Shown: positions 31,785 through 34,350 of the stretch, one piece after another
Numbering within the stretch: the stretch's first letter is position 1
How the letters are laid out: every line of letters starts with the position of its first letter
Source: Paludibacteraceae bacterium
GTDB lineage: Bacteria; Bacteroidota; Bacteroidia; Bacteroidales; Paludibacteraceae
Length of the DNA stretch: 51,986 bases
Direction: 5' to 3'
NCBI GenBank assembly: GCA_017503075.1
Contig: JAFVTU010000022.1
Span: 1 to 51,986, forward strand
Made by a program: the position numbers and the translations under genes
The notes under the pieces: model-generated
Databases searched by the model: none
The model's input: only the letters and a program-made list of their open reading frames with translations
What the model was told of the DNA's origin: nothing

Positions 31785-31815
31785 TTGCACATCCGCAAAT
31801 TTTGTTGTATCTTTG
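31785..31815 (+). promoter_or_regulatory. Promoter of the DGR-like lipoprotein unit
   Basis: TTGC (31785-31788) and TATCTTTG (31808-31815) are 19 nt apart. Transcription should start near 31821. Confidence 0.75.
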
Positions 31816-31827
31816 CAGTGTTTTGTT

Positions 31828-31953
31828 GTGTTGCACGATAGCAAACAATTATCCCTCAAACAGTTTGCTTATCTCTGCGAAAAGATGGTAGAGGTAGAGG
31901 ATCAATTGAAGAAATGGAAAGCATATTATCAAAAAGACAATAGAAATCAATAA
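31828..31953 (+). CDS. Possible 41-codon gene ahead of the lipoprotein
   Basis: An open frame from GTG at 31828 (or TTG 31831, ATG 31885) ends at 31953, 7 bases before the lipoprotein ATG. The predicted start is 6-8 nt from the expected transcription start, the same near-leaderless arrangement seen for the kinase and priA. The peptide is charged and helical, with a segment reading FAYLCEKMVEVEDQLKKW, and looks like a short coiled coil. I do not recognise a family. It could instead be untranslated leader, since GTG and TTG starts are weak evidence. Confidence 0.35.
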   Translation: MLHDSKQLSLKQFAYLCEKMVEVEDQLKKWKAYYQKDNRNQ

Positions 31954-31960
31954 ATGTATT

Positions 31961-32818
31961 ATGAAAAAGTTTTTTAGTTTCGCCATTTTCGTAATGGCAG
32001 TGTTATTTGTAGGTTGCGATCCCAATGCTCCTGCTACATCTTCTGCGGGCATAGGTGCGTTCTCCGTGTCAGCGGATAAGCAAGTGAGTTTCTCAAAGGG
32101 TAATTTGCAGTACACGCAATCTACTAACACTTGGTCTTTTGCGAGTGCGCAATATGAAATGATAGGTACAGAGAATGTGACTGGCGGTAGTGTATCTTCT
32201 GACCCAACTTATGGTGATGATAAAGCAGGTACTGCTCTGGCCGATAAGATTGATTTATTTGGTTGGAGTGGTAGCACAGGTTCTGCAAAGTTTGGTGTAA
32301 GTACTTATACTTATTATGCTGATTATTATGGTAGTTTCGTTGATTGGGGTACGAATCAGATAGGCAATGATGCCCCTAATACATGGCGTACATTGAGTTA
32401 TGATGAGTGGTCTTATGTAGTATTTAATCGTCTCAATGCAAGTTCTCTTGTGGGTGTCGCTCAGGTTAATGGTGTGAATGGTTTGATTTTGTTGCCTGAT
32501 GATTGGGCATGTCCATCAGGTATTACTTTCAAGTCAGGTTTTCATAGCAGTTCTGGCGTGGATTATTATGCCGCCTACCAAACTTTTACAGCCAATCAGT
32601 GGTCACTATTAGAAGGTGCTGGTGCAGTCTTCTTGCCTGCCGCAGGCTATCGCTTCTGCTCGCATGTGGGCGACGTGCAGAATAGCTGCTCCTATTGGTC
32701 TGCCACTGGGGACGATAGCGACTACGCGGTCTGCCTCTACTTCGGCTCGGACGAAGCGCGCATTGGCAACGTCATTCGCAGCTGCGGGCGCAGTGTCCGT
32801 CTCGTTAAGGATCTATAA
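31961..32818 (+). CDS. Lipoprotein with C-type-lectin-like, DGR-type variable C-terminus
   Basis: This 285-residue protein has a lipoprotein signal (LFVGC, C19). The body (VSFSKGNLQYTQSTNTWSFA, WRTLSYDEWSYVVFNR) matches a family of Bacteroidales surface lipoproteins. The last ~65 residues have the scaffold LPAAGYR...YWSAT...A..LYF...R..G.SVRLVKDL, characteristic of FGE/C-type-lectin-fold proteins that serve as DGR targets. Between the scaffold positions most codons end in C (GAC, AGC, TAC, TGC, GGC, CGC), as expected if AAC codons of a template had been mutated at adenines. GC is about 61% over 32641-32810 against roughly 30-40% upstream. No reverse transcriptase or template repeat is in the window, so any DGR would act in trans. 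Ligand binding at the surface is inference. Confidence 0.75.
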   Translation: MKKFFSFAIFVMAVLFVGCDPNAPATSSAGIGAFSVSADKQVSFSKGNLQYTQSTNTWSFASAQYEMIGTENVTGGSVSSDPTYGDDKAGTALADKIDLFGWSGSTGSAKFGVSTYTYYADYYGSFVDWGTNQIGNDAPNTWRTLSYDEWSYVVFNRLNASSLVGVAQVNGVNGLILLPDDWACPSGITFKSGFHSSSGVDYYAAYQTFTANQWSLLEGAGAVFLPAAGYRFCSHVGDVQNSCSYWSATGDDSDYAVCLYFGSDEARIGNVIRSCGRSVRLVKDL

Positions 32819-32853
32819 AATTTTGCAAAACGCTTTTAGCGTTCAGCAAAATT
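32819..32853 (+). repeat. Hairpin immediately after the variable region
   Basis: AATTTTGC (32819-32826) pairs with GCAAAATT (32846-32853), enclosing AACGCT/AGCGTT (32829-32834 / 32838-32843) with a TTT loop. It abuts the stop codon and lacks a T run. Hairpins just downstream of variable repeats are needed for retrohoming in the known Bordetella phage DGR. Confidence 0.7.
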
Positions 32854-32930
32854 GGAGTGCATAATAAGAAGGTTCGTGCCAACTGGTTTGAATCATTTGT
32901 AAAATAGATCACTGTTACTTCTTTGAACAA

Positions 32931-32971
32931 CAATCCGCATAGCCGAACGATCAAGTCGGTTATGCGGATTG
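32931..32971. terminator. Strong hairpin between convergent genes
   Basis: A 16-bp stem (CAATCCGCATAGCCGA with 32956-32971, one G-T pair) has a 9-nt loop. It lies between the lipoprotein and the convergent ATPase gene and probably ends transcription from one or both sides; the following T content is modest. Confidence 0.7.
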
Positions 32972-33044
32972 TTTGCTTATGTTGAATATCTTGGAAAAAC
33001 TATGGCACCCTAATTTGCTGCACGCCTATTCCCCAAAAGATATG

Positions 33045-34223
33045 CTAATACACAAAACCAAACATCCACAAAGGAATAGAGTTTTGGTAAACATATTCAG
33101 TGTCATCTTTAACGACATACCCCTGATTGATAGGCAGTGTGGCAAGCTGCTTTTTGGTTTTATTCTTTCCTCCTATCTCAAAAGTTAATCCATCTACTTC
33201 AAAATCGGAAACGGGCGAGGAGGAAATAAAATGTCCCACGCGAAGCCATGCAAAGAAGATTGTTTCACGAATAGTGCCAATATCTGGGGTGGTATCTGAC
33301 AAGACGTATGCCTCATTGGGATTGTGCAAATATACCTTTTCTATCTTTTCGAGCAATTTAATGCCTGATGCCTTTTCTCGTAACACACCTATCAATCCCG
33401 CCTTCTCAAGAAAGAGCATGTATTTGGGTAGTGTATTTCGAGAGATTTCCAAATCACGCTCTAATTTAGCATAATTAGGTTTAAAAGGCACACTTTGTGC
33501 CAATACATAGAGCAATTTCTTCAGTTTCTGTACCGATGCTACTTCCATTTCGGCAAACTTAGGTATATCATCTTCTACCACCTGCTTGATGATACCATTC
33601 AAGCGCATTGCGTAGTTGTCTTCTTGAAAGAATGGAAAATATCCTTCACGCAAATATTGTGTGAATAATTGCAATGGACGCGCCTTGTCATATGGAAAGT
33701 CCACCGCACCAGCCAGAATATCCTCTAATGAATAACGTGGCAAATTCCAACCTTGAGATATATTCAGATATTCACGGAAACTAAGCCCAGGCAATGTATA
33801 TTCTACCTTTCTTCGGCTCAAATCAGCCCCTCCTTTTTCTAAATCCAAAATAGAAGAACCACTATACACCACTTTCAAGTCTGGCATCATATCATAGATA
33901 TTCTTTATCTCCGTTGACCAGCCGTGGTATTTGTGTATCTCATCAATATAGAGGTGTTTACCGCCCTGCAACATAAATTGCCGAGCTAAATCCACTAAGC
34001 GATGCGTAGTGAAATAAAAATCGTCAGCCATCACATATAGCGTCTGCGGTGTATTGTCATATAGGCGAATGTGCTGTAAAATCATTGTGGTTTTACCAGT
34101 ACCTCGTGAACCTAATATGGCAACTAAACGACTATTCCAATCTATCTCATCATGTTTGTCACGAACAAAGGTAGTACTCACTCTGTTGACCAGTTCTCGG
34201 GATGTTGCAAATAAATTTTCCAT
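33045..34223 (-). CDS. AAA-type ATPase, AAA_14/DUF4143 family
   Basis: This 392-residue protein has Walker A GSRGTGKT near residue 36 and Walker B HLYIDEIHKY near residue 90. SGSSILDLEKGGADLSRR is a sensor-like segment of this family. A C-terminal DUF4143-like region follows, with a winged-helix-type stretch (NYAKLERDLEISRNTLPKYM) and a nuclease-like half (YVLSDTTPDIGTIRETIFFAWL, FEVDGLTFEIGG). I start at 34223 because upstream codons overlap the promoter. Proteins of this family are widespread and of unknown role. It stands alone here with its own promoter. Confidence 0.85.
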   Translation of the reverse strand: MENLFATSRELVNRVSTTFVRDKHDEIDWNSRLVAILGSRGTGKTTMILQHIRLYDNTPQTLYVMADDFYFTTHRLVDLARQFMLQGGKHLYIDEIHKYHGWSTEIKNIYDMMPDLKVVYSGSSILDLEKGGADLSRRKVEYTLPGLSFREYLNISQGWNLPRYSLEDILAGAVDFPYDKARPLQLFTQYLREGYFPFFQEDNYAMRLNGIIKQVVEDDIPKFAEMEVASVQKLKKLLYVLAQSVPFKPNYAKLERDLEISRNTLPKYMLFLEKAGLIGVLREKASGIKLLEKIEKVYLHNPNEAYVLSDTTPDIGTIRETIFFAWLRVGHFISSSPVSDFEVDGLTFEIGGKNKTKKQLATLPINQGYVVKDDTEYVYQNSIPLWMFGFVY

Positions 34224-34246
34224 ATCTGTAGTAGTAAAAATCGCTG

Positions 34247-34277
34247 CAAAGGTACATAAAAAAATCAAATTGCACAA
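34247..34277 (-). promoter_or_regulatory. Promoter of the ATPase gene
   Basis: On the minus strand, TTG (34277-34275) and TACCTTTG (34254-34247) are 20 nt apart. Confidence 0.75.
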
Positions 34278-34350
34278 TAGGCGATGCACTTTTTTGATAA
34301 AAATGCATTATTAACCGTGCATTTTTCTTCTATTAAGTGACTCATTTCGC

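Follow-up and report, generated by a model that had tools for sequence, protein, structure and literature searches.

A putative lipoprotein gene in the Paludibacteraceae genome G000 is probably the orphaned target of a Bacteroidales chromosomal diversity-generating retroelement (DGR). It would have been diversified formerly and have lost its machinery since, leaving a variable region (VR) that is now probably frozen. The window analyzed here, 51,986 nucleotides of DNA, is the whole of contig C12 of this draft assembly (30 contigs, 2.06 Mb; 99.55% complete, 5.49% contaminated). The features on which this reading rests are the following.

31785-31815, forward strand: Bacteroidales-type promoter motif TTGC-N19-TATCTTTG, recognized by motif count and occupying the place of the 5' part of avd
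31813-31953, forward strand: short open reading frame, C-terminal remnant of the DGR accessory gene avd, recognized by phrog_3206 and tblastn matches
31961-32818, forward strand: target gene for a putative lipoprotein of 285 amino acids, from translation and family homologues
32629-32815, forward strand: DGR variable region, aligned over its full length to the template repeats (TRs) of genomes G038 and G058, with differences clustering at template adenines
32819-32853, forward strand: VR-linked two-part hairpin, type A, from its fold and its occurrence past genes with VR-like tails
32929-32973, no strand assigned: separate 18-bp inverted repeat (z -6.3), given only as a possible transcript end because it is absent from the terminator-scan list

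The target belongs to a family with homologues at E <= 1e-20 in 87 of 101 genomes of the genus (G000 included). Its N-terminus reads by eye as a lipobox-like ...LFVGC, and its C-terminal end is LPAAGYRFCSHVGDVQNSCSYWSATGDDSDYAVCLYFGSDEARIGNVIRSCGRSVRLVKDL. Translation bears out the open reading frame and the tail LPAAGYR...YWSAT...LYF...SVRLVKDL that an earlier, sequence-only reading had claimed for it. The GC jump to about 61% which that reading placed at 32641-32810 is measured at 0.612, against 0.439 for the window; a GC content this high is reached by only 24 of the 51,817 170-nt windows, and all of these fall in the 500-nt bin from 32500. The tail is also as rich in NNC codons as had been claimed, with codons ending in C making up 32 of 59 in the VR versus 28 of 223 elsewhere in the gene.

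Within G000, the closest DNA relative of the tail lies at C5:29895-30078 (74% identical). Protein relatives are encoded on C8 (60%), on C21 and C1 (41% and 33%, respectively, over the tail), and on C10, where the match (32%) covers just the N-terminal part. On a possible C-type-lectin-like fold of the variable domain, the matches to FISUMP TIGR02145 (E 0.004) and Lcl_C (E 0.23) are weak and below cut-off, the best E in a PDB sequence search is 0.034, and an AlphaFold model built from a two-sequence alignment is unusable (mean pLDDT 37.3). A phage or plasmid origin of the target is rejected, as no relatives were found in phages, plasmids, or viral contigs. An AAA-type ATPase gene lies directly past the target (33045-34289, reverse strand); similar-looking ATPase genes, judged by eye, also lie beside the G038 and G058 cassettes, which may be coincidence.

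The VR makes up the last ~61 codons of the gene. It was compared with the TRs of two other species (TR038 and TR058, from congeners G038 and G058) because no TR was found in its own genome. In the C12 VR, 30 of the 58 adenines of TR038 are changed, as are 12 of its 124 other bases (p 1.5e-9); for TR058 the figures are 36 of 63 adenines and 14 of 119 other bases (p 1.6e-10). At the 56 columns where both templates have A, the VR keeps A at 26 and has G at 18, T at 10, and C at 2. The tail on contig C5 differs from TR058 at 27 of 63 adenines and only 2 of 119 other bases (p 9e-13); its coding region upstream of the VR is only 79% identical to that of G058, which is a different species. One of these two exceptions, an AAGCAT/AAGGAT difference, is present in all four VRs compared, as expected of what the IMH end should show. 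By these adenine-restricted differences to the templates of two congeners, the C12 tail is a DGR variable region, as had been proposed, and C5 is a second VR in G000. The tail on C21 is adenine-biased relative to each of the six TRs compared (p 2.7e-5 to 0.044) and is only a probable VR because it closely matches none of them. This locus (C21:35773-36006, reverse strand; L012 and L008) has a GC-rich (0.53) VR-like tail, beyond which lie two hairpins, the first type A-like and the second of type B.

As a control, the 600 nt before the VR give p >= 0.065 in five of six comparisons; the sixth, C12 against G058, shows a mild adenine excess (p 0.0065) that counts against the DGR reading. The AT-rich paralogous tails of C8 and C1 give p values from 0.034 to 0.74 in 12 comparisons; in both sets of controls the adenine bias is small or absent. 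Among 14 VRs, all 91 pairs show the same order of identity, with non-A columns (0.86-0.99) above upstream coding sequence (0.72-0.85) and this in turn above A columns (0.36-0.64). Eight of 117 non-A sites in C12 match neither TR038 nor TR058. Such unexplained sites number 1-5 in the VRs of G038 and G058 and 6-10 in VRs of genomes where no matching cassette was found, with G072 C110 (4) and C5 (2) as exceptions, and the count is biased toward G038 and G058, which supplied the templates. On these counts (8 versus 2), C12 looks older than C5.

Cassettes in G038 (contig C43) and G058 (contig C17) consist of a target homologue, a stop codon, hairpins, a spacer of ~290 nt, an adenine-rich TR, and then a reverse transcriptase (RT). 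Their target homologues are 69-72% identical in amino acids to the window target, and the adenine-rich repeat translates as NGNYWSATENNSNNANYLNFNSDEANMNNNNRNNG. For the congener RT, a match to phrog_1423 (reverse transcriptase) is found at 4e-86, and one at 1e-25 to the solved RT 8ub7, which we take to be the BPP-1 DGR RT. It carries the motif LPIGDLTSQ, and (I/V/L)GxxxSQ is described as a hallmark of DGR RTs (PMC3521204). These cassettes share with the C12 locus the genus, a homologous target, a VR matching at non-A sites, and a 3' hairpin; they differ in having a TR, an RT, and a type B hairpin, whereas C12 has a type A hairpin, an avd tail, and neither TR nor RT. In both cassettes the TR is in frame with the RT open reading frame (L059:1102-2484 and L070:1135-2484) and would be translated as the RT N-terminus, provided that the start is upstream. 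A TR overlapping the RT frame is a catalogued layout (PMC3521204). Across the genus, RVT_1 is found at E <= 0.001 in 24 of the 101 genomes searched; these 101 include G000 but not G111. At 11 of 30 RT loci examined, from 11 genomes, an asparagine-rich template-like stretch adjoins the RT frame or stands at its start. Viral contigs contain no match to the RT patterns, and the 100 phage records that match the congener RT are all below 60% identity.

The sequence-only reading had noted no reverse transcriptase in sight, and neither RT nor template was found in the window. It had also claimed that the VR is diversified by a DGR elsewhere in the genome, which the assembly does not bear out. RVT_1 (PF00078) has no match at E <= 1 in the 30 contigs. 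The congener RT protein finds no RT in G000; its five matches are VR and tail copies, all running through the template-encoded first 63 residues of the RT frame. The congener TR finds no TR in G000 either, its full-length matches being the C5 and C12 VRs only and the remainder six stretches of 14-28 nt with E 0.67 or worse. Intact Avd was likewise not found in G000, where only the C-terminal residues 75-114 are present. An active DGR is accordingly rejected for this assembly. By the refutation test that the sequence-only reading had set itself, namely that the genome lacks an RT and anything resembling a template, the claim of activity falls for this assembly, and that of DGR origin stands. 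For C5 and C21, too, no TR or RT was found in the assembly, and all three VR loci sit inside contigs, not at contig ends. Marker completeness is no guarantee that a DGR is assembled in a 30-contig draft with this level of contamination.

The short open reading frame upstream of the target ends 7 nt before the target ATG. Its homology to avd, covering the ~40 last codons, spans 31798-31929 or 31810-31929 of the window, depending on the search. The remnant matches phrog_3206, "Avd protein of DGR", at E 0.0013, and tblastn with the intact Avd of G111 gives 79.5% over 44 amino acids (E 8e-18), with Avd residues 75-114 kept at 85% identity. The intact gene lies between two targets on G111 C20 (frame 2426-2848). 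Its match to phrog_3206 is at 1e-14 and that to Pfam bAvd at 2e-7, which falls short of the bAvd cut-off, and a PDB sequence search with Avd gives a best E of 0.69. Tail DNA of avd occurs at nine places, spread over 7 of 178 genomes; these places include the intact G111 gene and a 33-nt match. The avd tail of the window is 93% and 96% identical to those of G111 and G072, versus 78% for the pre-VR part of the target. Of five differences from G111 before the stop, four are synonymous third-position changes, suggesting that most of the divergence arose under frame constraint or that the leader is still constrained.

The motif in place of the avd 5' part, TTGC-N19-TATCTTTG, is presumably the Bacteroidales promoter consensus. 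Its TATCTTTG box lies at 31808-31815, and the window contains nine such motifs, against 0.62 expected in shuffles. All five truncated avd-tail loci examined (C12, G072, G129, G100, and G058 C57) have a TAnnTTTG box 19-90 nt before the aligned point, and the intact G111 avd has none at the corresponding place. The target would be transcribed from the motif at 31785-31815. Genome G058 contains three copies of the avd-tail leader (C17:1-52, C81:1-52, and C57:69447-69519), and a longer repeat probably broke its assembly, because two of the three copies lie exactly at contig starts.

The two-part hairpin begins at the first base past the TAA and has no T run, as had been described from the sequence. 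Its outer stem is AATTTTGC/GCAAAATT and its inner stem AACGC/GCGTT. The predicted stability is -12.3 kcal/mol as DNA (z -5.2; no shuffle among 200 reaches it), and the element is absent from the list of the terminator scan. A type A search pattern, derived from VR-linked copies, has 12 sites, spread over 10 of the 178 genomes searched in the genus; eight of these sites had served to write the pattern. Each of the 12 follows a gene with a VR-like tail and starts 4-11 nt past the first base of its stop codon, in line with the earlier claim that the hairpin goes with the VR. The four sites independent of the pattern (G113 C11, G025 C54, G072 C94, and G062 C7), three of which belong to a different target subfamily, lie outside the scope of the adenine test. 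A reversed control pattern has no sites in the tabulated results of the same scan, and the type A pattern has no matches in viral contigs.

A second hairpin, type B, is carried by the cis cassettes of G038 and G058 and by the C5 target, and in G000 its pattern has two sites only, C5 and C21. The hairpins of C12, C5, and C21 are all intact. The type B alignment comprises ten distinct sequences, with the identical G038 C43 and C5 sharing one row; it omits G038 C18 and G072 C110, which have lost the 3' arm, and G164 C6 and G054 C132, for which the extracted sequence was cut short. In this alignment 92.7% of stem cells are paired, 12 cells are changed on both sides, and the covariation score is 0.262, each reached by 0 of 500 shuffles; when slid, the score is at most 0.114. 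Two further measures are weaker, with pairs changed on both sides reached by 18 of 500 shuffles and further pair types by 257 of 500. By this covariation, the type B stem is maintained by compensatory changes. By analogy with phage elements, we propose that the hairpin at 32819-32853 is a homing hairpin.

Ordinary divergence within a large paralogous lipoprotein family, with a GC-rich, NNC-rich tail unrelated to any DGR, is hardly credible as an account of these data. In its favor are the size of the family in the genus and the existence of AT-rich paralogues that lack the pattern (C8 and C1), but the adenine-restricted differences and the ordering of all 91 VR pairs are judged to refute this account. 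It is further contradicted by the VR-linked hairpins and by the TR and RT that adjoin homologues in congeners. A narrower alternative, which takes the hairpin for a common 3' element (a terminator or mRNA stabilizer, for instance) without a homing role, seems very unlikely. The missing T run, the absence from the terminator scan, and the restriction of all 12 sites in 178 genomes to genes with VR-like tails argue against it, as do the compensatory changes in type B, the equivalent element of C5 and the cis cassettes, and the confinement of the type B pattern to C5 and C21 within G000. It is favored by the position directly past the stop codon, by loops unlike the GRNA tetraloop consensus of phage DGRs (PMC3240598), and by the two weaker of the five type B measures. 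The type A stem also hardly varies, so covariation is not assessable on it.

A more serious contender, though still unlikely, is that the VR continues to be diversified in trans by a TR-RT cassette of the G038/G058 kind, lying in an assembly gap, an unbinned contig, or a missing element. The intact hairpins would fit such a situation, and one RT serving remote targets is a published arrangement (PMC3521204). The C5 copy looks freshly written, as its two non-A differences from the template of another species look like very recent rewriting, which is hard to reconcile with a long absence of the machinery. The failure to find RT, TR, or intact Avd in a nearly complete assembly, the location of all three VR loci inside contigs, and the truncation of avd beside C12 speak against it. 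Loss of the DGR, if real, was recent, because the C5 copy looks so freshly written.

For the preferred reading, loss of the machinery, the simplest history is the following. The starting layout would have been a complete cassette of the avd-target-hairpin-TR-RT kind, reconstructed from several genomes because no single one seen has all the parts together. Mutagenic homing, as modeled on known DGRs, would have copied an adenine-rich template into the last ~61 codons of the target, with random bases at the template's adenines, at a site marked by the adjoining hairpin. Later, the 5' two thirds of avd would have been lost and replaced by promoter-bearing sequence, and TR and RT would have been lost too, leaving the target under another promoter; this order of losses is the one we infer. 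The remaining arrangement would be promoter, avd tail (now a 5' leader), target, VR, and hairpin, with the VR presumably frozen and evolving like an ordinary binding domain. A related stage, by its content a partly dismantled cassette, is found at G072 C57:17334-19219 (locus L083). It contains an avd tail, a target with VR and type A hairpin, and half a template repeat that matches at 93% over 82 nt and then breaks off, and no RT was found in 16 kb.

The C12 locus is a clear new example of a situation known from other bacteria, not a new system. It belongs to a known kind of orphan because remnants in Treponema denticola, as well as remote VRs, broken RTs, and TR-RT overlap, have already been published. 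T. denticola isolates without RT and TR carry DGR targets that the authors read as remnants; as at C12, their VRs depart from the TRs of other isolates mostly at adenines, and many targets are predicted lipoproteins (PMC4891356). That case differs in phylum and in being a comparison within a species, whereas the present one is between species; an avd remnant or VR hairpin was not met in the consulted text of PMC4891356, in which the word hairpin has no occurrences. The DiGReF survey likewise describes remote VR paralogues, VR-less paralogues, broken RTs, and TRs overlapping the RT frame, but its inactivated DGRs keep VR/TR pairs or a mutated RT nearby, whereas the C12 target keeps an avd tail only (PMC3521204).

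In phage BPP-1, efficient homing needs an inverted repeat that lies, as at C12, where the target gene ends, a few bases past the VR (PMC3240598). Phage DGR hairpins have GC-rich stems of 7-10 bp and GRNA loops (PMC3240598), whereas the C12 hairpin, putative in function, combines an AT-rich outer with a GC-richer inner stem and has longer stems and other loops. Among open-access papers in PMC, none was found that pairs "diversity-generating retroelement" with Paludibacteraceae. Within the same open-access scope, neither an avd tail serving as leader behind a promoter motif nor a two-part hairpin was met in the consulted text of PMC4891356, PMC3521204, and PMC8144416.

The C12 locus would illustrate, from DNA alone, how a DGR falls apart, with the machinery lost and the target, its mutated tail, and the landing hairpin kept, and with the helper gene avd reduced to a leader behind a promoter motif. 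RT-based surveys overlook such orphan loci, and a large DGR survey states that remote targets are beyond its detection (PMC8144416). The two-part hairpin provides a simple sequence tag by which DGR targets of this genus can be recognized, even when they are remote or orphaned. It also becomes testable whether a target that has lost its DGR is a dead end or a landing site for a new one. A decidedly speculative extension is a portable "target cassette" made up of avd tail, target, VR, and hairpin. It would spread through the genus without its DGR, acquire a promoter again and again near the same place inside avd, and stay docking-competent, open to rewriting by a DGR that arrives later. If so, the avd tail would be kept for a cis function, translational coupling or target recognition, and would not be junk.

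Other arrangements of these parts occur in the genus. At G111 C20:1440-3709 (locus L153), an intact avd lies between two targets, both with VR-like tails, and there is no RT in 16 kb. At G058 C44:12364-15507 (locus L161), three target homologues are joined in one 1667-aa open frame, in which a VR-like stretch is internal instead of terminal. A second RT type, with GNLTSQ and YMDD motifs, is present on G062 C4, G063 C98, G008 C48, and G100 C83 (loci L058, L071, L072, and L064). It adjoins a formylglycine-enzyme-like sequence (...GIYDMSGNVWEW...) and possibly represents a separate DGR lineage.
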